NCBI RefSeq assembly: GCF_000407145.1
Contig: NZ_KE136472.1
Location: forward strand, 1 to 64,000
DNA: 64,000 nt
Source of the DNA: Enterococcus caccae ATCC BAA-1240
GTDB lineage: Bacteria > Bacillota > Bacilli > Lactobacillales > Enterococcaceae
Direction of reading: 5' to 3'
The position numbers and the translations under genes were made by a program. Shown here one piece after another: positions 38,523 to 52,396 of the stretch (position 1 is the stretch's first letter; each line of letters opens with the position of its first letter). Below the pieces are notes generated by a model, which was not told the origin of the DNA, searched no databases, and was given only the letters and a program-made list of their open reading frames with translations.

Positions 38523-39074
38523 TCAGGGTGTTATAATCAAATTATAAGACATTGCCTCATTGGTCCTTAGAGACCGTGTGCGCCTTTGTCTTATTCTCAA
38601 CTGTTTACAGGCTACGGTCGCAACCTTACCCTTCTTAGGTATAGGTTGCGTTTTTAATTTGTAATAGTAATCTACAATATGATTTGAAGCGGCAGCTTGT
38701 TGGCAGATCATATTTTTTACAGTGAAATAAAGAATTTTCCGAGCTTTAGGATTGCCAAGTTTATTGATGTGATCTTTGGCAAGGTACTTTCCTGATTGAT
38801 ACCTACGAGTATCTATCCCAACAAAAGCATTGACTTTCTTGTGGTTCTCAAATCGTCGAATGTCCCCGATTTCACCAATAAGTAAGGCCGCAGAAACTTC
38901 ACCAATTCCTGGAACACTTTGGTAAAGATCAAACTCAGATAATGGTTTGGTTTGTTCAATAAGCTGCTTAGACAAGGCCTCCTTTGATTGAATAAGCTCT
39001 TTTAATTTTTAGGCATAATATTGAACCTTATAACTTTTCCACATAGAAACATCCAATACAAGTACATAAACCAT
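38523..39074 (-). pseudogene. Decayed IS110-family transposase
   Basis: On the minus strand the frame starts at 39074 with MVYVLVLDVSMWKSYKVQYY, which looks like the N terminus of IS110-type DEDD transposases (YVLGIDVS...GKS). It then reaches a stop codon and continues in the same frame with KELIQSKEALSKQLIEQ. From there the C-terminal transposase_20 domain follows: VPGIGEVSAALLIGEIGDI, FVGIDTRR and NPKARKILYFTV. The central part, normally some 200 residues, is missing. The C-terminal end after KVATVAC is out of frame. This is an internally deleted, inactive remnant. Confidence 0.8.
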
Positions 39075-39894: not shown

Positions 39895-39954
39895 ATTACC
39901 TAGTCATGGGGAGCAGAACATGTCTGCTAGACATCTAAAATGAAGGAGGCAATC

Positions 39955-42453
39955 ATGAAGAAGTTAACGTGTTCTAAAATTTCGTTAGTGGGGGTATTGG
40001 TTTTACTATTGGCAGCAATTACTCCTAGCTCACTTGTTTTTTGGGAGGATCATAATCAATATGAAGTAAATGCGGAAAGTTCGGCAAGTGCTGCTGATTT
40101 AGCAGATATTAGTATTTTAAAGGGAACGCAACTTTCTTCAAAAAATGGCACAATCATGAGTGACGGTGTCAAGTTGGAAAAAAATGCTGATGCTACATAT
40201 GATTTGGATCTTTCATTTAAAGGTACTGCGATAGCAGATGTTGGTTTGGTATCTCCTAAAGTAATTGTTTTTGCGATTCCAGAAGAATTACGTGGCAAAA
40301 TGGATGGCCCGATTTTGATTAATGCAAATGCGAAACTATTGCCAATTGTGCCAGGAGATGTGCCTGTTGTGAAAGATTTAGTTTTAAAAGTAGGTGGTTT
40401 AGTGACCAGATTACTTGGATTGGCGAAACCTTTAGGCTTACAGCTTGATTCATTAGAAAAAGCGTTTGAGGGACTTAATTCACTTCAAGAGTTAGGGAGC
40501 TATCAAGCGACAGTTGAAGGGAAATTATCGCCAGATGGTAAATATGTCATGGTAGATTTCACCGATGGTTTAGGTCAATATGTACGTACAACATATGCTA
40601 AATTATTTAATCCTTTGAAAGAAGCCGTTGCAGGGTTAAAATTTACTGGGATTTTAGCGATTTTGAATCCTGTTCTTGATTTACTAAAGCCTGCAGTTAA
40701 TGGTTTACTGGATCTTGTAGGGGAAATTGCTAATGGTACATCAGATGTATTGACCAATGCGCTGCAAGCTAATGTTCTTGGTGATGTTGATTTTGAGTTT
40801 TCTACGAAAGTTTCGGATGTAACGGCAGAAAAAGCTAAAGTGACGGCAATGGCAGTTAATAAACCAGTGATCGATTTGGAAATATTAAATACAATCCATG
40901 CAAATGGAGATTCAATTAATCTTTATTTTGATAAAGCTGAAGAGAATCCGTTAGCGGATTATTCTGTTGCAAGCCCGATTGTTGAAGATGTTATCGAAGG
41001 TATGACTAGTCTTAAAGGCAGTGTATCTCTTTCACAGCCAGTTCCAACTGGCACGATATTTGAAGCGAAAGTTGAACTACCAGATGGAAATAGGTTATCT
41101 GTCGTAGTCAATAAAGAAGGAACATTTGAGGTTCCTTTTGGTGATTATCATCCTCAAGCTAAAGATCAACTAAAAGTACTAGTTGAAGCCCATGTTGGGG
41201 AGTATTCCAAAGTCAGTGACCCTATAATAAAACAAGTTATAGCAGACTCATTCCTCAATTATCCTATCGCAAATCCGGTTGTTGAAGATATTATTGAAGG
41301 TGCGACGAGTCTTAACGGAAATGTAGTGCTTGTTCAGCCAATACCAACTGGGGTAACATTTAAAGCAAAAGTTGAATTACCAGATGGAACAAGTCTAACG
41401 GGCGTCATCAATGAAGATGGGACGTTTACCATACCCTTTGGTGATCATCAAGTGAAAAGTAATGATTCGGTAAAAGTAATGATTGAAGCAACTGATGGCA
41501 AACGAATAAAAGTGAGTGATCCAGAAATCAAACAGGTCATTCCAGATCCGTTTTTACACTATATTGTTGCAAAACCTGTAATTGGAGACATTTTGGAAGG
41601 GATGCCTAATCTCAATGGTAATGTAGCAATTACTCAGCCGATTCCAAATGGTGTGACATTCCTAGCAAAAGTTGAATTGCCAGATGGAACAAGTTTAACA
41701 GGACCCGTCAATGAAGATGGAACGTTCACCATTTTATTTGGCACCTATCAGCCTCAAGGCAATGATCAATTAAAGATAATGATCGAAGCAAATGATGGTA
41801 AAAGAACAAAAACAAGTGAGCCAGAAATCAAACAAGTTATTGTAGATCCTTTGAAGAACTACCAAGTGCCAAAACCACAGTTCAAAGCTGTGAATGAAGG
41901 TAGTAAGTTGATTACAGGATCTATCGATATAAAAGATGTTCCAGTAGGGAGTAAATTATTTGCCCAAGTTCAATTTCCTGATGGTTCACTGAGAAAAGTA
42001 GCGATTGAAAAGGATGGAACCTTTTTGATATCGATAGAGAACAAAAACTTAAAAGAAGGCAATCCCTTAAGGCTTGTAACGATTGCAGAGCATCCTCAAT
42101 CGTACAAAGGCAAAAATAGTGAAAGTGTTGTTTTTGCAGTTGGCAAGATTCCTTCTTTAGAAGGGTACATTGTTTCGACGCCAGTTGTAGCACCTATTTT
42201 TGTTGGCGATACGACAATCAAAGGATCTGTTACCATCACTAATCCGCCGGAAGGAACCAAGTTTAGTATAAGAGTAAGATTCCCAGGAAATATTTATGAA
42301 GAAACACCAGTCAATGCAGATGGAACGTTTTCATTGGATATTTCTAGTCGTCAGTTAGTTGCTGGAACTTCGATTACCTTTAATACAACGGCAATACTTG
42401 GTGCTGAGACTGTATCAAGCGGTAGAATCATTGTTTCTGTCGGTGCCAAATAA
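39955..42453 (+). CDS. Large secreted adhesin-like protein with five Ig-like repeats
   Basis: An 832-residue protein with a signal peptide (KKLTCSKISLVGVLVLLLAA, processing near residue 30-45). An N-terminal domain of about 290 residues is found at the head of other WxL-locus proteins. Five Ig-like repeats follow; the first three are exactly 100 residues (300 bp) apart. Each carries a VELPDG-like strand and a core of the EDGTFTIPFG type (DGTFTILFG, KDGTFLISI, ADGTFSLDI in later ones). There is no LPXTG and no WxL motif, so attachment must come from partners or from the N-terminal domain. The frame opens at ATG 39940, but that codon precedes the ribosome site AAGGAGG (39942-39948), so ATG 39955 is used. 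Confidence 0.87.
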   Translation: MKKLTCSKISLVGVLVLLLAAITPSSLVFWEDHNQYEVNAESSASAADLADISILKGTQLSSKNGTIMSDGVKLEKNADATYDLDLSFKGTAIADVGLVSPKVIVFAIPEELRGKMDGPILINANAKLLPIVPGDVPVVKDLVLKVGGLVTRLLGLAKPLGLQLDSLEKAFEGLNSLQELGSYQATVEGKLSPDGKYVMVDFTDGLGQYVRTTYAKLFNPLKEAVAGLKFTGILAILNPVLDLLKPAVNGLLDLVGEIANGTSDVLTNALQANVLGDVDFEFSTKVSDVTAEKAKVTAMAVNKPVIDLEILNTIHANGDSINLYFDKAEENPLADYSVASPIVEDVIEGMTSLKGSVSLSQPVPTGTIFEAKVELPDGNRLSVVVNKEGTFEVPFGDYHPQAKDQLKVLVEAHVGEYSKVSDPIIKQVIADSFLNYPIANPVVEDIIEGATSLNGNVVLVQPIPTGVTFKAKVELPDGTSLTGVINEDGTFTIPFGDHQVKSNDSVKVMIEATDGKRIKVSDPEIKQVIPDPFLHYIVAKPVIGDILEGMPNLNGNVAITQPIPNGVTFLAKVELPDGTSLTGPVNEDGTFTILFGTYQPQGNDQLKIMIEANDGKRTKTSEPEIKQVIVDPLKNYQVPKPQFKAVNEGSKLITGSIDIKDVPVGSKLFAQVQFPDGSLRKVAIEKDGTFLISIENKNLKEGNPLRLVTIAEHPQSYKGKNSESVVFAVGKIPSLEGYIVSTPVVAPIFVGDTTIKGSVTITNPPEGTKFSIRVRFPGNIYEETPVNADGTFSLDISSRQLVAGTSITFNTTAILGAETVSSGRIIVSVGAK

Positions 42454-42489
42454 AATACACGGTTTATCAATCAAGAAAGGGTGTATAAA

Positions 42490-43092
42490 ATGAAAAAATC
42501 AATATTTGCTACAACGAGTTCTACAGTACTATTATTGTCAGTTGTTTTAGGAACATTATTTATAGAACAAACTGTATCAGCAGCTGATATTAATAAAGCA
42601 ACTGATCTTGACGTTACGTTTACGCCGGGGGCTTTAACATTAGAGGCTGTTTCTACCATTAGTTATGCATCGCAAACAATCTCGGTGAATGATGCTTCAT
42701 ACATTCCAACTAATCCTAACGCAATCAATGTAGTCGTTTCAGATGCCCGCGGAACAAATGCTGGATGGAAGCTTAGTGGGAAATTAAATGGATTTAAGGA
42801 TAATGCAGATGCCGCTTCTTTACCAAATGCAAGTCTGAATTTTAAAAATACGCAAGCTGGAACAAATAGTGATGCAGAAGCACCAACGCCAGTTAACTCC
42901 GTCGCACTATCCAGCAGCGCTCAAACTGCTTCGCCATTTGCAACTGCTGCAGTAGGTGCTGGTGCAGGAACTTGGACCTTTACTTGGCCTGATGCTGAAA
43001 GTAAAGGCGTGACCTTGAATGTACCTGCTGCAATGGCAACACTTGGCAAACATACGTCTACGATCGATTGGACATTGGCTGATGCGCCATAG
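42490..43092 (+). CDS. WxL domain surface protein
   Basis: A 200-residue secreted protein that is almost entirely a WxL domain. The signal peptide ends at VSA near residue 31. The first motif is W93-K-L95 (NAGWKLSGKLNG), and the distal motif is STIDWTLADAP at the C terminus. There is no proline linker, unlike the WxL protein of locus 1. ATG 42490 follows AAAGGGTG; the frame begins at 42481. It lies 36 bases after the adhesin-like gene and before a WxLIP gene. Confidence 0.92.
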   Translation: MKKSIFATTSSTVLLLSVVLGTLFIEQTVSAADINKATDLDVTFTPGALTLEAVSTISYASQTISVNDASYIPTNPNAINVVVSDARGTNAGWKLSGKLNGFKDNADAASLPNASLNFKNTQAGTNSDAEAPTPVNSVALSSSAQTASPFATAAVGAGAGTWTFTWPDAESKGVTLNVPAAMATLGKHTSTIDWTLADAP

Positions 43093-43110
43093 AATTAAAG
43101 TCTGAATGTA

Positions 43111-43333
43111 AGGGTGTGGGACAAAAGTAACAATCACTTTTGTTTCACACCCTAAATGCGAATAAACGGTAGGATCAGAAGCACTCCCTTCGGAAATAAG
43201 CTGAAATTGCTGTAAAACACAAAGAGGAATGAGTTGATGCTTTCTCGCTAAAGGCTCGTCGCAGATAAACATTGTTGCACAGTACCTACTTGGTTCTCGG
43301 GATTAAACGCTTCTGTCCATCCTCTTATATTCG
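43111..43333 (+). repeat. Intergenic repeat, full copy with hairpin head
   Basis: It starts with an interrupted hairpin (AGGGTGTGGGACAAAAGT with ACTTTTGTTTCACACCCT, 43111-43128 and 43136-43153). Next come AATAAACGGTAGGATCAGA, CTCCCTTCGGAAATAAGCTG and GTTGCACAGTACCTACTTG, then CTTCTGTCCATCCTC, which mirrors the start. It splits WxL and WxLIP genes of locus 2. Confidence 0.75.
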
Positions 43334-43390
43334 AAATAAATGTTTTTATCTCGGCCTCTTTGTTCTGATAATAATAAAGGAGTGATTTGG

Positions 43391-44434
43391 ATGAGAGGGT
43401 GTTCTAGGTCGAACGTAGTTGAAATACTAGTTTTAATTGGACTTATTTTTTGTTGTTTATTGAATATAAAGACGGTTTCGGCACAGGAAAAAAGTAAGGA
43501 AACGAATAGTTTTTATATACAAGCAGTTATTCCTGAGAATCAAGTTGACATCAATCGATCGTATTTTGATTTGAAAATGTCACCAGAAGAGAAACAAGAG
43601 CTACAAGTTAAGCTAGTCAATCCAGAGGCTGAACCAATATCAATAGCGATTAACGCAATAAATGCTACTACAACAGAAGAAGGAATGATCGACTATACGT
43701 TAAAAGGAATCAAAGATAAAAGCTTGAAATATCCTTTTGAATCTCTGATCAAGGTTTTAGAAACGAATATCACCTTGCAACCATACGAAACAAAAATTGC
43801 CCGTTTTCACGTGAAGATGCCAAAAGAACAGTATGACGGTGTGATTGTTGGAGGAATACGCTTTACAAAAAATTTACCCGAAAGTGAAATAAAAACCAAA
43901 GAAGTAACGATTGGTCAGCGTTTTCATTATGTTATTGGTGTTGTTTTGAATGAGACCAATACAATAATTTTACCAGATTATGAAATGGATGGGGTAAAAG
44001 TAGCAGAGTCCAAAAATGGTAAGAAAATCTCAGTTATTCATTTGCTTCGGAACAAAAATGCCGCTATTTCAAAAAAAATGACTCTTAAAGTTGCGATTCG
44101 AAAAAAAGGGAATCAAACTCCTTTAATTAAACTGGACAAAACAGCATTGGAAATGGCACCTAATTCTGTGATGGATTTTCCAGTGCCAATCAAAAGACAG
44201 CTTCAGCCTGGAAAATATATCAGTAAGACTCAAATTGAGCAAGATGGCAAAAAATGGAGTTTTGAAAATGAATTTGAGATAACACGAGAACAAGCCAAAT
44301 TAATCAATGAAGAAAATAAACCGATGGAGACCAAAAATGATGTTCCTTTATGGTTGTTAGTTGTAATTTTTTTATTAGTTTTACTTGTGTTAGTACAAGC
44401 CTATATTTTATGGAAAAAACAGCAAAGTAAATAA
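43391..44434 (+). CDS. WxL-interacting protein (DUF916-DUF3324)
   Basis: A 347-residue membrane-anchored protein. A signal sequence (VVEILVLIGLIFCCLLNI region) is followed by the DUF916 domain opening IQAVIPENQVDINRSYFDLK, the DUF3324 domain, and a C-terminal membrane helix (WLLVVIFLLVLLVLVQAYIL) with a short basic tail. It resembles the WxLIP of locus 1 along its length, but the two are clearly diverged. The frame is open from 43340; AAAGGAG (43376-43382) selects ATG 43391. A 300-base gap with a repeat separates it from the WxL gene. Confidence 0.92.
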   Translation: MRGCSRSNVVEILVLIGLIFCCLLNIKTVSAQEKSKETNSFYIQAVIPENQVDINRSYFDLKMSPEEKQELQVKLVNPEAEPISIAINAINATTTEEGMIDYTLKGIKDKSLKYPFESLIKVLETNITLQPYETKIARFHVKMPKEQYDGVIVGGIRFTKNLPESEIKTKEVTIGQRFHYVIGVVLNETNTIILPDYEMDGVKVAESKNGKKISVIHLLRNKNAAISKKMTLKVAIRKKGNQTPLIKLDKTALEMAPNSVMDFPVPIKRQLQPGKYISKTQIEQDGKKWSFENEFEITREQAKLINEENKPMETKNDVPLWLLVVIFLLVLLVLVQAYILWKKQQSK

Positions 44435-44555
44435 ATAGTTGCGGGTTCATTGATTATTATTAATTTGATTCTGAGGTTAAGATGGTTTAACCGAGATTGT
44501 ACTTTGGACATAGTTTCTTATTTCCATTTTTATTAAGTTATTTCCTTTGTATATT

Positions 44556-44564
44556 TGTTATAAT
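44556..44564 (+). promoter_or_regulatory. Extended -10 promoter for the 131-residue protein
   Basis: TGTTATAAT, a perfect extended -10 element, lies 37 bases before the start at 44601. Confidence 0.6.
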
Positions 44565-44600
44565 ATAAAGGGAATAAATGAGGTGAAGAAAGGATTTTCA

Positions 44601-44996
44601 ATGATGAAAAAAGCGCTAATTACTAAAACTGTTAACTTACTAGATGGAGGTTGTAATGTTTGTGGCATTATTGAGGATGAAAATTATGTGTTGACGATTG
44701 GGGAGCAAACAATTCCTTTAGAAGAACTGACTGTTAATGCTTTAATAACAGGGATTGTTTTGAAGAATGGTTATAAGCGAAAATATGTGTCTGATGTTAT
44801 TGACGATTATACTTTGTATATAAAAGAAGAATATCAAGTTATCCTTAAAGAAGAGTATAACTTTTTGACTTATTCTAATGATACAGAAAAAATAGAAACG
44901 CAAGATCAAATTGTGGATGAAAAAAAGTTAGCTGAAAAGGTAAATGAACTATTAGTCACTCTTTTTAAGGTAGAAGAATTAGTATTTTGTTTTTAG
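44601..44996 (+). CDS. Unknown cytosolic protein
   Basis: I do not recognise this 131-residue protein. It has no signal peptide or membrane helix. It has a beta-rich first half with DGGCNVCGIIEDENYVL, an acidic middle part and a C-terminal helix (KKLAEKVNELLVTLFKVEEL). The CNVC pair could bind a metal but has no partner pair. The frame starts at 44547 inside the promoter; the AAGAAAGGA site selects ATG 44601 (ATG 44604 is also possible). It is monocistronic, between WxL locus 2 and the lysins. Confidence 0.7.
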   Translation: MMKKALITKTVNLLDGGCNVCGIIEDENYVLTIGEQTIPLEELTVNALITGIVLKNGYKRKYVSDVIDDYTLYIKEEYQVILKEEYNFLTYSNDTEKIETQDQIVDEKKLAEKVNELLVTLFKVEELVFCF

Positions 44997-45034
44997 AAGA
45001 CTAAAAGAAGCTTTGGACAAACATTCATGAGGCT

Positions 45035-45122
45035 ATCATTTTCATCGAACAGAATGAAAATGATCGACCGATAGGCTTTTTCCTATCATCCTTGGAGATG
45101 ATAGGGGAGCTTATCGGTCGAT
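45035..45122. repeat. Nested long hairpins in the convergent gap
   Basis: Hairpin 1: ATCATTTTCAT (45035-45045) with ATGAAAATGAT (45054-45064), perfect. Hairpin 2: ATCGACCGATAGGCT (45063-45077) with AGCTTATCGGTCGAT (45108-45122), one mismatch. Inside it lies a third stem, CCTATCATC (45082-45090) with GATGATAGG (45097-45105). A weaker GATCAG/CTGATC pair follows at 45167-45192. It may be a bidirectional terminator, but T-runs are lacking, and a structured RNA is possible. Confidence 0.75.
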
Positions 45123-45207
45123 TACTCATTAACGTTCTTTTCTAAGTTAACTTGAAGGGCAAACCAGATCAGTTTATTTTTTTGAGCTGATCATTAGGGT
45201 AAGTAAT

Positions 45208-46686
45208 TTACTTTTGTAAATATACCTGTGCATTAGTATAAGCATTTGTATCCCCTGGAAACCATTTTTTCAACTTAGCTGCAAGTTCAACTGCACGTTC
45301 ATTATTCTCGATATTTATAATCTGTAAATAAAATTTCCCATCGCTTTGTTTGCCATAAGATACTCTAGTGGAAAGGAAATATTGACAGAATTTTTCGCGT
45401 AGATTTCCTCGTAAACGATTACTAATCGCTTGCCAATCTTTTGGCAAATTATCGATTTCGATCCAATTGTACTTTTTATCTGCTTGAGCAACAACTTTCA
45501 TATCGCGTTCATTGTAATTGGAAATTTGGCCTTTTGTCAGTCTTAAACATTCTGATTTCATATAGTCAGTCCATTCAGGTTTTACACCAACGACTTTAAC
45601 CATTAAGTGAGTTGGATATTCAATTAAAAAGACATTTCCATTTGTTAACATAGGCCATGTATTTTGACGAACAAATCCTGCCATGCTTTTTGCTCCTGTT
45701 TCAAGAGGAATATCATTAATGACTGTTTTATATAGCTTTCCATTCTTTACTTCAGGATTTTGATTATGCCCTTGATTCATGAAAGGCTCTTTTGTAATAA
45801 ACCAGATGGTTCGATCCATTAAATCTTGTTCTAAGACCCAGAGATTTCCTAAAGTAGGGCTGCTGATCATATATTGATAAGGACTGTGTGATTCAGCGGT
45901 GCTATCAATTTGTCCAATTGTGTATTCTTGACCAAGGTATTTTTTTTCCAATATGCGCTTACTCCAGTGAATGCTAGCGTTAGTGGCACTGGTACTTAAA
46001 CGAACTTTAGTACCTACTTTAAATTTCGCAGCAGGAGCAAGAGAGAGATCTTGTTCGTAGATCCATTTACGATAGGTTGTTTCATTAGAGCGGATCAATA
46101 CCTCATATTCTGAATTACTCCATTTAGAGCTGAGTGCATGAATTTCTTCTACTTTGTAATATTGATTGACTCTGTTTGCCGGAATCGCTTCATTAGACGA
46201 CCAAGGTGATGTGATTTTTGCGCCAGCAGATAGTAAGACAATATTTCCCACTTTTACTTTACAGGCTCTAGTTGGAAATGCTGTAAATGGGGGGCGCACA
46301 ACCCCTGCAAAATTATTATAGTTAAATGTACGTTGAGTAGAGGCTTCATTTTTTTCACCTCCATTTTGATCAACACCAACAAATCCTGAACTGGTCACGG
46401 AGCCTAAAACAATTCCTGTATGACCTGCTGTACCATAGTTATAAACAAAAATATCTCCTGGTAACGGATAAAAGCCTGCTGTATTCGGAATTACTCGAAA
46501 TCCTCCAACGTTGCCTGTTTGCATTAAATCTTTTGCTACTGCTCCACTAAATGCAATTCCAAATAACTCATGTGCATATTGATTGATTAAATCAAAACAT
46601 TGAATGCCGCTTGCACCATCATAATCATATGCCTTTCCGATTGAATTTTTTGCCCATTGTACGCCTTGTGTTTGTGTAACTCCCAT
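45208..46686 (-). CDS. CHAP-domain lysin with SH3-like repeats (twin lysin A)
   Basis: A 492-residue peptidoglycan hydrolase. The N-terminal CHAP amidase/endopeptidase domain (about 1-135) has C30 in GIQCFD and H89 in AGHTG. Two SH3-like wall-binding repeats of about 75 residues follow (KVGNIVLLSAG... to WIYEQDL, and KVGTKVRLSTS... to WVLEQDL). A C-terminal domain of about 200 residues that I do not recognise completes the protein. From residue 136 on it is identical to the neighbouring GH24 lysin. There is no signal peptide, as in phage endolysins, but no holin or other phage gene is adjacent. It starts at ATG (46686 on this strand) after AAGAAGGAA. Confidence 0.9.
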   Translation of the reverse strand: MGVTQTQGVQWAKNSIGKAYDYDGASGIQCFDLINQYAHELFGIAFSGAVAKDLMQTGNVGGFRVIPNTAGFYPLPGDIFVYNYGTAGHTGIVLGSVTSSGFVGVDQNGGEKNEASTQRTFNYNNFAGVVRPPFTAFPTRACKVKVGNIVLLSAGAKITSPWSSNEAIPANRVNQYYKVEEIHALSSKWSNSEYEVLIRSNETTYRKWIYEQDLSLAPAAKFKVGTKVRLSTSATNASIHWSKRILEKKYLGQEYTIGQIDSTAESHSPYQYMISSPTLGNLWVLEQDLMDRTIWFITKEPFMNQGHNQNPEVKNGKLYKTVINDIPLETGAKSMAGFVRQNTWPMLTNGNVFLIEYPTHLMVKVVGVKPEWTDYMKSECLRLTKGQISNYNERDMKVVAQADKKYNWIEIDNLPKDWQAISNRLRGNLREKFCQYFLSTRVSYGKQSDGKFYLQIINIENNERAVELAAKLKKWFPGDTNAYTNAQVYLQK

Positions 46687-46715
46687 ATTCTATTCCTTCT
46701 TTCTTTTTATTAGTT

Positions 46716-46743
46716 TATAACACGTCTGTTATATAGGAATTCC
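46716..46743 (-). promoter_or_regulatory. Palindromic operator-like element upstream of lysin A
   Basis: TATAACA-CGTC-TGTTATA (46716-46733) is a perfect inverted repeat, and GGAATTCC (46736-46743) follows. The same pair of palindromes with the same CGTC centre occurs upstream of the second lysin. A TATACT (-10-like, minus strand) lies at 46756-46751. Confidence 0.65.
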
Positions 46744-46981
46744 TACATTTAGTATAAATTATTTATTCTTTAGAAAACTTTCTATTCTCTGTTGAAATCC
46801 TGTTAAAATTCTGTTTGAAGATTTCTAGAGAACAAGTTTTAAGAAAATAGTTATGTATTTAGTAAGAATAAAGTACGGACTAGTCTAATAAGAAAGGGAG
46901 GGATGAATCAGTTGGGTAACCGAAATATAAGTTGATTGTATTAAGTGATTTTTTATCTCATATTTTTTTCAGAAATTGAAA

Positions 46982-47172
46982 AGAGCCTGGGACAAAACTA
47001 AAAATCAGTTTTGTCCCAGGCTCTAAATCTGAATAAACGTTGGGATCAGAAGCAAGCCCTTCGGAAATAAGCTGATGTTGCACAGTACCTACTTGCTCAC
47101 AAAAATTTGAAGAGCAATTTTCGTGAATCCCATCTTATTTCTCGGGGTTAAAAACTTCTGACCCAGCCTCGT
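46982..47172 (+). repeat. Intergenic repeat, full copy between the twin lysins
   Basis: It begins with a perfect 18-bp hairpin (AGAGCCTGGGACAAAACT, 46982-46999, with 47007-47024). Next come GAATAAACGTTGGGATCAGA, GCCCTTCGGAAATAAGCTGA and GTTGCACAGTACCTACTTG, and the end CTTCTGACCCAGCCTC mirrors the start. The 46,744-46,981 gap to its left is AT-rich without recognised content. Confidence 0.8.
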
Positions 47173-47181
47173 AATTAGTCC

Positions 47182-48699
47182 TTACTTTTGTAAATATACC
47201 TGTGCATTAGTATAAGCATTTGTATCCCCTGGAAACCACTTTTTCAACTTGGCTGCAAGTTCTACTGCACGTTCATTATTCTCAATATTTATAATCTGTA
47301 AATAAAATTTCCCATCGCTTTGTTTGCCATAAGACACTCTAGTGGAAAGGAAATATTGACAGAATTTTTCGCGTAGGTTTCCTCGTAAACGATTACTAAT
47401 CGCTTGCCAATCTTTTGGCAAATTATCGATTTCGATCCAATTGTACTTTTTATCTGCTTGAGCAACAACTTTCATATCGCGTTCATTGTAATTGGAAATT
47501 TGGCCTTTTGTCAGTCTTAAACATTCTGATTTCATATAGTCAGTCCATTCAGGTTTTACACCAACGACTTTAACCATTAAGTGAGTTGGATATTCAATTA
47601 AAAAGACATTTCCATTTGTTAACATAGGCCATGTATTTTGACGAACAAATCCTGCCATGCTTTTTGCTCCTGTTTCAAGAGGAATATCATTAATGACTGT
47701 TTTATATAGCTTTCCATTCTTTACTTCAGGATTTTGATTATGCCCTTGATTCATGAAAGGCTCTTTTGTAATAAACCAGATGGTTCGATCCATTAAATCT
47801 TGTTCTAAGACCCAGAGATTTCCTAAAGTAGGGCTGCTGATCATATATTGATAAGGACTGTGTGATTCAGCGGTGCTATCAATTTGTCCAATTGTGTATT
47901 CTTGACCAAGGTATTTTTTTTCCAATATGCGCTTACTCCAGTGAATGCTAGCGTTAGTGGCACTGGTACTTAAACGAACTTTAGTACCTACTTTAAATTT
48001 CGCAGCAGGAGCAAGAGAGAGATCTTGTTCGTAGATCCATTTACGATAGGTTGTTTCATTAGAGCGGATCAATACCTCATATTCTGAATTACTCCATTTA
48101 GAGCTGAGTGCATGAATTTCTTCTACTTTGTAATATTGATTGACTCTATTTGCTGGGATCGCTTCATTAGACGACCAAGGTGATGTGATTTTTGCGCCAG
48201 CAGATAGTAAGACAATATTTCCCACTTTTACTTTACAGGCTCTAGTTGGAAATGCTTGTTCTAAAAATAGTGATGCCTCTGCCGCTCTACGATTGACTAA
48301 ACCTTGCAGAATTTGCCCAGTATTATCATGAGTATAAAGTTTCATTTGATTTGTAGCAGCTTCCCATTGTCTGTTGTTGAGACAGGAAAGTAATGCAGAC
48401 CCTCTTAATATTTCTGGACCTAAATTAAAGTGAAAGCTTGCAAGTGCATCAAATTGGTTTTGATTTAACTGAACACTTACATATTTTGAAATTCCTGCGG
48501 CATGGGTGGGCATATCCTCAGCTAAAAATGCATCTGCTTGAGCCTCTGTAATTGTCATACCGGATTTTACTCCTTTTATATGACCATAACCAATCGTCCA
48601 AATACCTGATGAATCTTGATAAGCAGTCAAACGTAATCCTTCGAACCCTTTTATTAATTTTATTCCTCTTGGTGATATCTTCATTCCTTCATTTGCCAA
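47182..48699 (-). CDS. GH24 lysozyme-type lysin with SH3-like repeats (twin lysin B)
   Basis: A 505-residue muramidase-type lysin. The N-terminal phage-lysozyme domain (about 1-148) shows the T4-type triad with exact spacing: E20 (KGFEG), D29 (AYQDSSG) and T35 (IWTIGYGH). The rest, from AFPTRACKV onward, is identical in protein sequence to lysin A. The frame is open to ATG 48717, but that codon has no ribosome site. GGAGG (complement of 48707-48711) lies seven bases before TTG 48699, giving MANEGMKISPRG, so TTG is preferred. No signal peptide is present. It should cut glycan strands, where lysin A cuts peptides. Confidence 0.9.
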   Translation of the reverse strand: MANEGMKISPRGIKLIKGFEGLRLTAYQDSSGIWTIGYGHIKGVKSGMTITEAQADAFLAEDMPTHAAGISKYVSVQLNQNQFDALASFHFNLGPEILRGSALLSCLNNRQWEAATNQMKLYTHDNTGQILQGLVNRRAAEASLFLEQAFPTRACKVKVGNIVLLSAGAKITSPWSSNEAIPANRVNQYYKVEEIHALSSKWSNSEYEVLIRSNETTYRKWIYEQDLSLAPAAKFKVGTKVRLSTSATNASIHWSKRILEKKYLGQEYTIGQIDSTAESHSPYQYMISSPTLGNLWVLEQDLMDRTIWFITKEPFMNQGHNQNPEVKNGKLYKTVINDIPLETGAKSMAGFVRQNTWPMLTNGNVFLIEYPTHLMVKVVGVKPEWTDYMKSECLRLTKGQISNYNERDMKVVAQADKKYNWIEIDNLPKDWQAISNRLRGNLREKFCQYFLSTRVSYGKQSDGKFYLQIINIENNERAVELAAKLKKWFPGDTNAYTNAQVYLQK

Positions 48700-48734
48700 T
48701 ATATTTCCTCCGTTCATTCGTATCTTTTTTTTAG

Positions 48735-48764
48735 AAATAACACGTCTGTTATTTTGGGAATCCC
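48735..48764 (-). promoter_or_regulatory. Palindromic operator-like element upstream of lysin B
   Basis: AAATAACA-CGTC-TGTTATTT (48735-48754) is a perfect 8-bp-arm inverted repeat, and GGGAATCCC follows (48756-48764). It matches the element upstream of lysin A in core, centre and spacing. TACAAT and TATACT -10-like hexamers lie just upstream on the minus strand. Confidence 0.65.
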
Positions 48765-48868
48765 CACTTGTATTGTATATTTTTTAAATAGTATAAAACT
48801 GTCTACTATCTGTCATAATTCTGTTTTATATTCACTATGCACTAAGGAAGAAATTTGGAAAAGAAAAT

Positions 48869-48912
48869 AAAGAGCTAGAATAAACAGATAATCATTGTTT
48901 TTCTAGCTCTTT
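48869..48912. terminator. Bidirectional terminator between lysin B and the DUF4303-like gene
   Basis: AAAGAGCTAGAA and TTCTAGCTCTTT form a 12-bp stem with flanking T/A runs. It would end the minus-strand gene at 48947. Confidence 0.8.
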
Positions 48913-48946
48913 TATAAAGTTTTATTTTTAGGTTGCCTGTTCTTTA

Positions 48947-49444
48947 TTAGTCTATTTGAAAATAATCAGACATTGTCAATTTTTCAAATCGTTCTTGTGA
49001 TGCAAAAACATGTTCATCATGATCGTAAACCAATACTTTAAAATCTTTTGTCTTAGGAATACGCTCAAATGTATCAGTTTCTACTAATAATAGCATTTGC
49101 TGACAAAGCCAGTCGAGAACTGTTTCAATATCTTGTTCGTCTTCCACCCAATCGTCAAATAGGTGAAGAGAGGCAAAACGTTGATTTTCATCCCAGTCAC
49201 GAGCATTATATTTCATTTCTTCTAACTGTGATGTGCTGTGGTTTTTACTCGTATAATAATCGGTTGTTTCTTGCCAAAGGTCTACGGTATTAAAGTAAAG
49301 ATTGATTTCACCTTCTTCATAAATAGTGCAGTCTAAAGCAAATACATAAAAGGTTTCATCAGAACGATCTAATAGAAAATTATCGATGCTATCTGTTAAA
49401 AAGCTGAAAAAGAATTCTTGTTGTTTCTCTAAAAAATTTTCCAT
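48947..49444 (-). CDS. DUF4303-like protein
   Basis: A 165-residue acidic, soluble protein without signal peptide. The pattern FYVFALDCTIYEEGEINLYFNT, followed by a tryptophan-containing RDWDENQRFA segment, resembles DUF4303, a family with unknown role that occurs among immunity-protein-like folds. The frame is open to 49477, but GGGAGG selects ATG 49444 (MENFLEKQQE). It follows the lysins on the same strand but has its own terminator. A role as immunity or regulator for the lysins is only speculation. Confidence 0.65.
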   Translation of the reverse strand: MENFLEKQQEFFFSFLTDSIDNFLLDRSDETFYVFALDCTIYEEGEINLYFNTVDLWQETTDYYTSKNHSTSQLEEMKYNARDWDENQRFASLHLFDDWVEDEQDIETVLDWLCQQMLLLVETDTFERIPKTKDFKVLVYDHDEHVFASQERFEKLTMSDYFQID

Positions 49445-49647
49445 GTCTATCCTCCCAATGTTAGGTTCTTTAAACATTGAAACAGATAAAACCTGGTCTG
49501 TCTATGGAAAGTTACGATTTGATAGAAAATAGCTATTATTTAAGAAAATGTAAAGTTTTTTTAGTTTAGAATGTTTGTTTATTCTGTAGGGCAGCTAATG
49601 TAGCTTTAGATGTAATGTACTTTCAGTTAAATAACATAGTTGTAAAT

Positions 49648-49665
49648 GTGAGGCTCCTATATAAA
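49648..49665 (+). repeat. Partial duplicate of the M-box 5' segment
   Basis: GTGAGGCTCCTATATAAA occurs here and again at 49727-49744 inside the M-box. This first copy lies upstream of the promoter and is not followed by the rest of the riboswitch. Confidence 0.8.
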
Positions 49666-49672
49666 ATTTAAT

Positions 49673-49701
49673 TTGACTTTGTGATTCGATACGCTTATAG
49701 T
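49673..49701 (+). promoter_or_regulatory. Promoter of the M-box leader
   Basis: TTGACT (49673-49678), exactly 17 bases, TATAGT (49696-49701). The RNA would start near 49708, just ahead of the riboswitch. Confidence 0.8.
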
Positions 49702-49714
49702 TTAAAATGAATTA

Positions 49715-49947
49715 AATACTTGTTAGGTGAGGCTCCTATATAAACACAGGCTACTGCTCAGAAATGTCGAAAGACAGGTATGGGTAGGACAAATTTCGTC
49801 GAATTAAGGCGTTTTTCAAAGTAGCTAAAAGCAATGCTTTTTACGTTATATAGTGCTAAAACTCAACGAAGAGAAGATCAAGGAAAGTTGTAAATAACTG
49901 GCACATGCCATGCGTTTGACTTCTGTTATCTAATCCCTTCGCTGAGT
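49715..49947 (+). promoter_or_regulatory. M-box (ykoK-type) magnesium riboswitch and expression platform
   Basis: The leader has the conserved M-box blocks in order: GTTAGGTGAGGCTCCTATAT (49722-49741), GCTACTGCTCAGAAATGTCG, GGTATGGGT, TCGAATTAAGG, GTAGCTAAAAGCAATGCTTT and AGTGCTAAAACTCAACGAAG. The last block can pair either with the 5' end (P1) or with CTTCGCTGAGT (49937-49947), which offers the two alternative states of a switch. High Mg2+ is expected to lower expression. The gene controlled is the LCP protein at 50011, not a recognised magnesium transporter. Confidence 0.9.
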
Positions 49948-50010
49948 GTTCTTGGTGAAGGATTTTTCTTTTACACGAGAAACCATTTAAGTAGCAGAAA
50001 GGAATAACCA

Positions 50011-50925
50011 ATGAAAAAATCTTTAAAAATAATGACAATTGCCTTATTATCAATCCTACTTGTAGTAGTGAGCGCAGGCTGTTATGCAGCAATTTCATTC
50101 CAAACAGCAAAGGAAAAAAGTGAATCGAAGCTCTCAAATAAAAATAAAGGTTTTACTGGTGATGAACAGACAAGTGATAAAGAATTGACTGTAATGATCG
50201 TGGGGAATGACTCTAGAGATGATGATGAAGATCAGGGACGTTCAGATACGTTGATGGTCGCTCATTATGATGGAAAAACGAAACAACCTAAATTGATTTC
50301 GATTATGAGAGATAGTTACGTTACTTTTCCAGATGGCGGACAAGACAAAATCAATGCAGCTTATGCATATGGTGGAGCACAAATGACCAAAGATGTGCTG
50401 AAGACAAATTTTGATTTACCAATCAATTATTATGTGGTCATGGATTTTAAAGAGTTTAGTGATATAATTGATGAACTTTATCCCAAAGGAGTGACGATCG
50501 ACTCCGAAAAAGATATCAATTTAGATGGTGTGGATATTTTGAAAGGGAAACAAACGTTGCACGGCAATAGCTTGCTGCAGTATGCACGTTTTAGAATGGA
50601 TGAAGAAGGCGATTTTGGGCGAATCAGACGTCAGCAACAAGTGATGGATGCCTTAGTCGCTCAATCTAAAGATTTGATTCCAATTTGGGAACTACCCCAA
50701 GTTGCAGGAAAAATGGTCGGGAAAATCGATACAAATGTTCCAACAAGCTTGTTAATCGATTTAGCGAAGGACTTTTTGTCTGGAAAGGTAAATCCTTTAA
50801 AATCGTTATCAGTTCCAGTACAAGGCTCTTGGAATTTCAATGACTATACAGAATCTGGCAGCGTGATTGAAATCGATGAGCAACAGAATGCAGAAGCTAT
50901 TAAGAATTTTATGAAAGATAATTAA
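50011..50925 (+). CDS. LytR-CpsA-Psr (LCP) family wall-polymer ligase
   Basis: Transfers anionic glycopolymers (teichoic acids, capsule or rhamnopolysaccharide) from undecaprenyl carriers to peptidoglycan. The 304-residue protein has an N-terminal membrane helix (MTIALLSILLVVVSAGCYAA, about 8-27). The LCP domain shows VMIVGNDSR near 62, RSDTLMVAHYD with the catalytic acid, LISIMRDSYV, and DFGRIRRQQQVM near 209 with the phosphate-binding arginines. ATG 50011 follows GAAAGGAA. It is behind an M-box leader, which suggests magnesium control; LCP enzymes use Mg2+ in their active sites. The leader contains no other gene. Confidence 0.92.
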   Translation: MKKSLKIMTIALLSILLVVVSAGCYAAISFQTAKEKSESKLSNKNKGFTGDEQTSDKELTVMIVGNDSRDDDEDQGRSDTLMVAHYDGKTKQPKLISIMRDSYVTFPDGGQDKINAAYAYGGAQMTKDVLKTNFDLPINYYVVMDFKEFSDIIDELYPKGVTIDSEKDINLDGVDILKGKQTLHGNSLLQYARFRMDEEGDFGRIRRQQQVMDALVAQSKDLIPIWELPQVAGKMVGKIDTNVPTSLLIDLAKDFLSGKVNPLKSLSVPVQGSWNFNDYTESGSVIEIDEQQNAEAIKNFMKDN

Positions 50926-51060: not shown

Positions 51061-52396
51061 GTGAAGGTTGTAATCATAGGCGCTTCATTTGCTGGAGTGT
51101 CAGCGGCTTTAGCGATTAGAAAAAAACATCCAGAAGCTGATATTCATCTACTGGATAAGCAGCAAACGATCGGTTATTTGCCTGGAGGCATCAATCTTTA
51201 TTTGAATGAAACGATTGCTCCAATTGAAACAGCTCAGTTCATTTCGGAAAAAGAGCTAGTAGCCAATAAGATTTCATTGCTATTGAACGTCAGAGTAGTC
51301 AGTATGGATTCCAAACAACATATTATCACATATGAAAAAGAATCAGTTGCGTTTTTTATGTCGTTCGACAAATTGATTTTAGCGACGGGGTCAAGTCAAT
51401 GGTCTAAGAACATTATTGGGAGTGATTCGGAGAAAGTTTTAAAATATAAGTTTTTACCAGGGGTACGGCAAGCTATCGAACACTTGGAAAAAAGTGATAA
51501 AGTAGCCCTGATCGGTGGTGGTCAAATCGGTGGGGAAGCAGCAGATGCATTGCTAAAAAAAGGCAAAGAAGTACATCTCTTTGAGCGTATGGATTATTTG
51601 TTATTTAAGTATTTTGATGAAGAAATGATTCAGCGGGTTCAAGCTGAAATGATCACTCGAGGGGTTGTGTTTCATTTTGATGAAACGGTGGAAAAAATCA
51701 CAGATACAGATGATGGTCTTTTGATTGAAACAAAGAAGTCTGAGTTAATGTGTGACAGTGCTGTTTTTGCAATGAATGTTCGGCCAGATATACAGTATTT
51801 AGACGAACATATTCAAACCCATACGGATCAAACCATTATGGTAAATGAGTATTTACAAACTTCTCAGGCAGATATTTTCGCGATTGGAGATTGCATTCAG
51901 GTACCTTATAGTTTGTCAAATGAATCATTTTATATCCCACTAGTGAATAATGCAGTTAGGACAAGGATTAGTAGTAGCTCAAAATCTTGTAGCGCCTACC
52001 ACGCCGTTTGTGGGCTCGATTCGTACGATCGGCACAAAACTTGTGGATTATTATATAGCAAGTACAGGATTGACCGAAGCAGAAGGATTATTTTATGCTA
52101 AGCCAATTTCTGTGACTCATGTTCAACAAAAGAGTTCGTTATTTTCTGGTAGTGAGACAATCTGGGGCAAGATTATTTTTGAAAAGGATACGCATAAAAT
52201 TTTAGGAGCACAATTAGTTTCAAAAGCGAACATCTTGGAAAAAATCAATACATTAGCACTTGGAATTCAAATGGGTCAAACGCTAGAAGTGTTTTATCAG
52301 AAAGATTTTTTGTATCATCCTTATTATTCCAACAGGATCGATATCACGAACCAGTTAGGTTTTGCAGGCTTGTGGAGTGAAGCTGATGAAAATTGA
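51061..52396 (+). pseudogene. Frameshifted FAD/NAD(P)-dependent oxidoreductase (NADH oxidase/peroxidase-like)
   Basis: Two overlapping frames together encode one flavoprotein of the Nox/Npr/CoA-disulfide reductase group. The first holds the FAD motif VVIIGASFAGVSAAL, the NAD motif VALIGGGQIGGEAADAL and the second FAD strand IFAIGDCIQVP. The second frame holds the dimerisation domain from GLVVAQNLV to the end. Removing one G at 51959-51960 joins them as NNAVRQGLVVAQNLV and gives 444 residues. The total length of 3n+1 bases agrees with a one-base insertion. The redox cysteine of the Nox family (SCG near 42) is replaced by PGG in GYLPGGINLY, so even the intact protein would not be a typical NADH oxidase. 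A sequencing error is possible. Confidence 0.85.

Follow-up and report, generated by a model that had tools for sequence, protein, structure and literature searches.

Two neighbouring lysin genes of Enterococcus caccae with different heads, identical tails and a common upstream layout: a putative pair of domesticated endolysins

We describe two neighbouring lysin genes, here called A and B, on the minus strand of a 64,000-nucleotide stretch of the Enterococcus caccae ATCC BAA-1240 genome (RefSeq assembly GCF_000407145.1, contig NZ_KE136472.1, positions 1 to 64,000; hereafter the window), which join two different catalytic heads to one and the same tail protein and carry the same arrangement of putative promoter and leader elements upstream. 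Our preferred reading, to which we give a probability of roughly 55%, is that both are domesticated endolysins, i.e., phage-endolysin-type peptidoglycan hydrolases turned chromosomal host genes, that would work in the manner of pneumococcal LytA and form a co-regulated pair for lysis of the own cell and its kin. Within this reading, the part that concerns history is firmer than the part that concerns function. If true, the pair would be a natural two-enzyme lysin system, with tails kept identical by gene conversion and a single private promoter-leader element for both genes, and it would illustrate clearly how hosts tame phage lysis genes.

Lysin A (45208..46686, minus strand) is an open reading frame (ORF) of 492 amino acids (aa), in which Pfam and alignment delimit a CHAP head (residues 1-134) followed by the shared tail; lysin B (47182..48717, minus strand), delimited in the same way, is an ORF of 511 aa with a GH24 muramidase head before that tail. 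Translation of lysin B probably starts at TTG 48699, giving 505 aa; this codon is preceded by GGAGG, and the lysin of another Enterococcus genome (G005) begins at the equivalent residue with ATG. A preliminary description of this DNA had placed the end of B at 48699, which coincides with the probable start, while the ORF itself extends to 48717. It had also proposed two different catalytic heads, CHAP in A and GH24 in B, with which both Pfam matches and motifs agree. The head of A matched CHAP (E = 3.9e-6; 27.7 bits against a cut-off of 26) and contains the Cys/His motifs QCFD at 29 and GHTG at 88, and the head of B matched Phage_lysozyme (GH24; E = 1.2e-41; 142.4 bits against a cut-off of 22.3) and contains E-x8-D-x5-T at 26; we take these motifs to be catalytic. 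Among phage records, 613 matched the CHAP head (best 41% among the matches listed) and 2,849 matched the GH24 head (best 53% among the matches listed).

Everything after the heads is encoded by a shared tract of 1,075 bp, stop codon included, found by alignment at 45208..46282 in A and at 47182..48256 in B (both minus strand). Aligned from their stop codons, the two copies differ at exactly nine positions (58, 70, 82, 103, 154, 196, 967, 973, and 976, numbered from the final base of either gene), and all nine differences are synonymous, so the two tails are the same protein. The preliminary description had counted nine silent differences by eye, six near the 3′ end (58-196) and three near the head junction (967-976), and the alignment bears this out; the identical core that it put at about 750 bp measures 770 bp (A, 45404..46173; B, 47378-48147; minus strand). 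A difference-free gap of this length has a probability of about 1.2e-4 if the nine differences fell at random, and the core is probably the most recent conversion tract. Identity between A and B stops at base 1,076, i.e., at the head junction, and directly after the stop codon. Within the E. caccae genome (3.55 Mb, 7 contigs), the full tract occurs only at these two places, and a third place holds a partial tail (residues 153-356, 66% protein identity). The nine differences and the unlike flanks speak against a collapsed repeat.

The tail was found in four of 22 genomes of the genus: twice in full in E. caccae, with a GH24 head in G005, and with CHAP heads in G010 (Enterococcus termitis LMG 8895) and G011. 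The preliminary description had proposed a search of other Enterococcus genomes for the pair; the tail lysins of these three genomes are each of a single head type, GH24 or CHAP. Together, the five tail lysin genes occupy three different chromosomal places across four species. Among 105 genomes of the family, the tail had matches in seven (E up to 0.001); those in G008, G013, and G014 were weak and fell on SH3-like repeats of different proteins, and these three genomes were not counted as tail carriers. No relative of the tail was detected in 50,697 phage records or in 72,556 plasmid records (E up to 0.01), and the tail had no Pfam match at E up to 10. None of the five tail lysin genes contains an internal stop codon, and both parts of the proteins are under purifying selection, with a ratio of nonsynonymous to synonymous divergence (dN/dS) of 0.09-0.16 for four head pairs and 0.06-0.09 for three tail pairs (0 for A and B; three further tail pairs were left out as their dS was saturated).

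At the chromosomal level, the lysin pair is inserted between two core genes. Both lysins lie in an interval of 3,950 bp (44997..48946, delimited from the coordinates and sequences of the flanking genes) between a DUF4809 gene, present in all 22 genus genomes, and a gene for a 176-aa protein, present in 15 of the 22. Of the 14 other genomes with both genes, 13 carry them side by side with some 40-390 bp in between (coordinates compared by hand), and the remaining one (G014) has them on different contigs. The DUF4809 gene also precedes the lone GH24 lysin of G005, a genome in which the search for the 176-aa gene gave no match.

How the two genes came to share a tail can be approached through these relatives. 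The head of A is closer to the CHAP lysins at silent sites and its tail protein is closer to that of the G005 GH24 lysin, which suggests that lysin A is a chimera of a CHAP head like those of G010 and G011 and a GH24-type tail. Specifically, the proportion of synonymous differences (pS) in the head (first 132 codons) was 0.45 (95% range 0.35-0.55) to G010 and 0.46 (0.36-0.56) to G011, while that in the tail was 0.67 (0.60-0.75) and 0.69 (0.62-0.76), respectively, without overlap with the head ranges, and the tail protein of A was 90.6% identical to that of the G005 lysin versus 78.3% to that of the G010 CHAP lysin. Since the identity between A and B stops where homology stops, we favor gene conversion, in which the tail of B probably overwrote that of A, over duplication with head exchange, and consider it well supported. 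Such a conversion would have reached as far as the homology does, from the head junction to the stop codon, and a later event would have covered the 770-bp core. The preliminary description had offered gene conversion and duplication with head exchange side by side; the limits of identity and the relatives support that view and add B to A as the probable direction. If, with no A gene beforehand, the complete B gene had been duplicated in tandem and one copy had then received a new leader and head, the final gene order and the tails would be the same, but we regard this as rather unlikely, as a duplicate of the whole gene should share DNA past the stop codon, where none was found, duplication and exchange are two steps, and the difference-free core suggests an extra conversion even then.

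Several observations nonetheless weigh against a chimeric origin of A by conversion. Protein identity between A and G010 is similar for head (83%) and tail (78%), and the tail pS between A and G005 is 0.81, near saturation and above the value between A and G010, such that silent sites do not group the tail of A with that of G005, unlike protein identity, which does. The control pair of G010 and G011 also shows a lower pS in the head than in the tail (0.30 vs 0.37), with overlapping intervals. The leader of A is ambiguous, being 82.9% identical to that of G010, 73.4% to that of G011, and 71.7% to that of B (110 bp, gaps excluded), and at only one of the nine differing sites (976) does A agree with G010 and G011 while B agrees with G005, which is unfavorable or at best neutral. 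The tail may have moved in another way as well: the tails of G010 and G011 are 90.2% identical at the DNA level versus 84.8% and 80.1% for two pstS genes and 69.0% for the DUF4809 gene, and this greater likeness than in three other genes suggests transfer of the tail between species.

Upstream of all five tail lysin genes we found one layout, consisting of ACAG-like boxes in an 11-bp register, a -10-like hexamer (identified by eye), five bases, and AGGAATTCC (GGGGATTCCC in B), with a dyad of the form TARCA-GACG-TGYTA about four bases further on. In A, the leader element (46717..46743, minus strand; pattern search, alignment, and fold) comprises GGAATTCC, 4 bases, and the hairpin ATAACA-GACG-TGTTAT, and in B (48737..48763, minus strand; pattern search and alignment) the 16-bp dyad is identical and the first block carries two mismatches. 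The putative promoters, both read by eye, have the -10-like hexamers TATACT in A (46751..46756, minus strand), five bases before TAGGAATTCC, and TACAAT in B (48772..48777, minus strand) in the same register. Three ACAG boxes 11 bp apart were located by pattern search upstream of each gene (A, 46789..46814; B, 48799..48824; minus strand); when A[CT]AG is allowed, A, B, and G010 each have three boxes in register, and G005 and G011 each have two. In the dyad of G005, both partners of one stem pair have changed (A-T to G-C), and the loop is conserved. We consider the occurrence of the leader element and the phased boxes at all five tail lysins to be a new observation.

This element is close to exclusive to the lysins in the genomes searched. 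With up to three mismatches allowed, the leader pattern occurred only at the five tail lysins in the 22 genus genomes (one match, in G020, for a backward control), and only at the two lysins in the window (0 in 100 shuffles of the window). Two extra matches in the 105 family genomes (G094, 3 mismatches; G115, 2 mismatches) fall within the coding sequences of unrelated genes, and as many matches came from the backward control, so a wider leader regulon was rejected. The exact triple ACAG at 11 bp occurred twice in the E. caccae genome, both times at the lysins, and at four places in six genomes, three of them at lysins; the lysins of G005 and G011 were missed by this exact form. Two known regulatory identities were tried and dropped. 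Regulation by Pho was rejected, as the 330-bp upstream regions of the pstS genes (two per genome, five genomes) do not contain two of three ACAG/CTGT boxes in an 11-bp register; one of the two pstS genes has TTTACA-like repeats upstream instead (by eye). No Rfam family fitted the leader either, as the three matches at E up to 1 in 44000-50000 consisted of an M-box at another position and two hits that fell short of their gathering scores. Less favorable to a co-regulated pair with an RNA level of control, the predicted leader RNA folds are weak (z from -1.8 to 0.0), with the hairpin in four of the five leaders and absent from the fold of B; given these weak folds, the dyad is as likely to be a DNA operator as an RNA element.

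We then considered what the tail itself may be. Its C-terminal domain (hereafter C-domain; 45211..45813 in A, minus strand; sequence search and model) is about 200 aa long and is modeled with a mean confidence (pLDDT) of 78.7 as two beta-alpha-beta-beta-alpha-beta units, while the model of the whole tail is of low confidence (pLDDT 58.8) with uninformative structural matches. The C-domain had no SPOR match in Pfam, its model had no Foldseek match at E 0.001 or better, and a SPOR domain was absent among the 50 structural matches listed. Searched alone, the C-domain matched in six of 395 genomes of the order (a sample evidently without G005), strongly in E. caccae, G010, G011, and G271 and weakly in G195 and G288; the weak match in G195 is a Phage_lysozyme2 protein and was set aside. 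In G271, the C-domain ends an Amidase_2 endolysin (L094:9049-10155) inside a prophage with integrase and tail genes, and an IMG/VR contig (L097) encodes the same proteins as this prophage. The C-domain of this endolysin is 46-47% identical to that of the lysins, but it differs from them in its head, in having no room for the two SH3-like units present in their tails, and in its prophage location. Within E. caccae itself, a prophage that is also in IMG/VR encodes a trypsin-like protease (L014:9703-11220, on C2) next to repressor-like and ImmA-like genes (gene names read by eye). The N-terminus of this protease is hydrophobic and its final 197 residues correspond to the lysin C-domain; it is possibly a lysogenic-conversion gene. 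Because the C-domain also ends a prophage amidase endolysin and a prophage-borne protease, parts of the lysins are probably phage-derived. Moreover, the C-domain is without a Pfam match and follows heads of four kinds (CHAP, GH24, Amidase_2, and trypsin-like protease), which makes it a candidate new wall-binding module.

The heads, which belong to phage endolysin families, and the prophage endolysin with this C-domain would also suit a history in which A and B are leftover lysis genes of lost prophages, chance survivors without a host role, and IS110-type remnants do lie nearby. We think this improbable, as the five tail lysin genes remain free of internal stops and have low dN/dS, and as they persist at three places in four species among neighbours that do not look phage-like (ORF lists, by eye) with the leader retained.

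An internal start that would yield free tails was also considered and set aside. The enterococcal phage endolysin LysIME-EF1, with a CHAP head and a wall-binding tail, is said to yield free tails from an internal start. A has a Shine-Dalgarno (SD)-like site with an in-frame start at residue 335, and B has one at residue 354, positions that correspond within the tail. Further SD-like internal starts occur in the head of B (residues 30 and 54) and at residues 265 and 264 of the G010 and G011 lysins, respectively; none was seen in G005 and none at the head-tail junction. LysIME-EF1 and other enterococcal phage endolysins differ from A and B in that the tail of the latter is without relatives in the phage records. 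Elsewhere in the genus, three genomes contain adjoining pairs of apparently secreted proteins (L031:4721-6967, L032:5107-7356, and L033:3184-5391), the longer member of which has SH3-like repeats weakly resembling the lysin tail.

Mechanistically, we hypothesize that one activator acting on the phased ACAG boxes switches both lysins on together, with the dyad at the 5′ end of the transcripts as a second level of control. The lysins would accumulate in the cytoplasm and reach the wall upon stress or lysis, where A would cut peptide or amide bonds and B would cut the glycan, with the common tail selecting the sites for both; as the tails are identical, both lysins presumably bind the same target. 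The outcome would be fast lysis of the own cell and of neighbours with the same wall, and both a weapon against related cells and programmed lysis are possible uses. By eye, no signal peptide is evident in A, B, or the lysins of the relatives, and the ORF lists, likewise read by eye, show neither a holin nor a common immunity gene next to the lysin genes. With no evident signal and no such genes, lysis from within or release by lysis appears to fit better than a secreted bacteriocin.

This bears on a reading of A and B as a secreted bacteriolysin pair, of the class III bacteriocin type, that kills related bacteria. Two cutting modes on one tail and the probable transfer between species would suit such a pair, but neither lysin has a hydrophobic N-terminal signal (by eye), a secretion or immunity gene common to the loci was not seen in the ORF lists, and the 176-aa neighbour, which we tried and dropped as a candidate immunity gene, is also present in 14 further genomes, of which almost none has these lysins; on balance, we find this reading doubtful. 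It is more doubtful still that the two genes serve as helper lysins to resident prophages or satellites whose own lysin is poor or missing. The same-genome prophage with its C-domain protease beside lysogeny genes points that way, but it has its own holin-like and lysin-like genes (L014:2536-3724, by eye), and the lysin leader element was not seen at the protease gene, nor was an exact match found in viral contigs. Returning to domesticated endolysins, a bolder version can be put forward tentatively, namely that the pair is a specialised lysis apparatus without a holin, particular to this Enterococcus group, in which interchangeable heads (CHAP, GH24) stand between a private regulatory leader (phased ACAG boxes for an activator, the -10, and the dyad) and a constant two-part tail that conversion keeps uniform. 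Both enzymes would then be produced jointly and would act on the same wall sites, for programmed lysis of self or kin.

Known systems offer partial parallels. Pneumococcal LytA has no signal peptide, and its prophage homologues are 85-92% identical, recombination with them giving chimeric genes (PMC12029793). A and B resemble LytA in anatomy, as chromosomal genes for putative wall hydrolases with relatives in prophages, and A is probably chimeric; no signal peptide is evident in them by eye. The lysin locus lies outside a prophage, and the C-domain recurs in the G271 prophage endolysin. LytA is, however, a single amidase, whereas the pair here has CHAP and GH24 heads, a tail without a Pfam match, and two like copies in one chromosome; A and B are not members of the LytA family proper, with its amidase head and choline-binding repeats. 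The competence fratricin CbpD has a CHAP head, an SH3-like middle, and a wall-binding tail and lyses kin under competence control, but it is secreted, and A and B have no evident export signal. In Lactococcus lactis IL1403, prophage endolysins contribute to autolysis without phage production and three copies are 99% alike (PMC5247546); those endolysins are prophage-encoded, while A and B stand outside a prophage. The modularity of heads and tails in lysins is already known, as a 2026 survey of enterococcal prophage endolysins reports SH3 and new domains behind several heads; it also describes CTD2, an unknown domain of 122 aa from an enterococcal lysin with two SH3 domains (PMC13379245). We found no published report of this pair or this tail in the literature searched, which did not extend to subscription journals and preprints.

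Regarding the surroundings, the preliminary description had seen no holin, portal, or integrase gene near the lysins, and our scan of neighbours agrees with this. The scan covered 20 of the 49 ORFs in the window with a length of 150 aa or more, the lysins included (16 distinct proteins in NCBIfam and PHROGs, 10 in each and 4 in both, plus Pfam), nearly all of the other 29 lying in the first 28 kb. None of these 20 is a holin, portal, tail, or integrase gene that would point to a lysis cassette. Three of 10 proteins matched PHROGs at 1e-10, one of them threonyl-tRNA synthetase, and the families were of unknown function or esterase/lipase. The scanned neighbours are housekeeping, surface-protein, or unnamed genes; those with a name include thrS, a PBP2B-like protein, an esterase, WxL genes, a LytR-CpsA-Psr (LCP) enzyme, an EbpR/MafR-type regulator, glpK, glpO, and a Na/Pi transporter. 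The view that the pair is not simply a prophage lysis module therefore stands at the locus, given the flanking genes and the neighbour scans, but not for its parts, which are phage-like, with the C-domain ending a prophage endolysin.

A few minor features of the window may be recorded. An IS110-type transposase fragment (Pfam) lies at 38523-38975, and short IS110-related repeats lie at 43110-43210 and, between the lysins, at 46981-47081. A WxL gene group on the plus strand (39940-44434) encodes a large adhesin-like protein with 300-bp repeats, a WxL protein, and a WxL-interacting protein. An oxidoreductase-like gene (51061-52396, plus strand) is split into two overlapping frames of 346 and 148 aa where G005 has one frame of 450 aa, which is either a frameshift or a sequencing error. 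Finally, an M-box magnesium riboswitch (RF00380, 142 bits; 49712-49880, plus strand) lies upstream of an LCP gene (50011-50925), a pairing on which the literature search returned no paper by title; an M-box is also present in the examined stretches of G018, G001, and G005, in the last likewise before an LCP gene.

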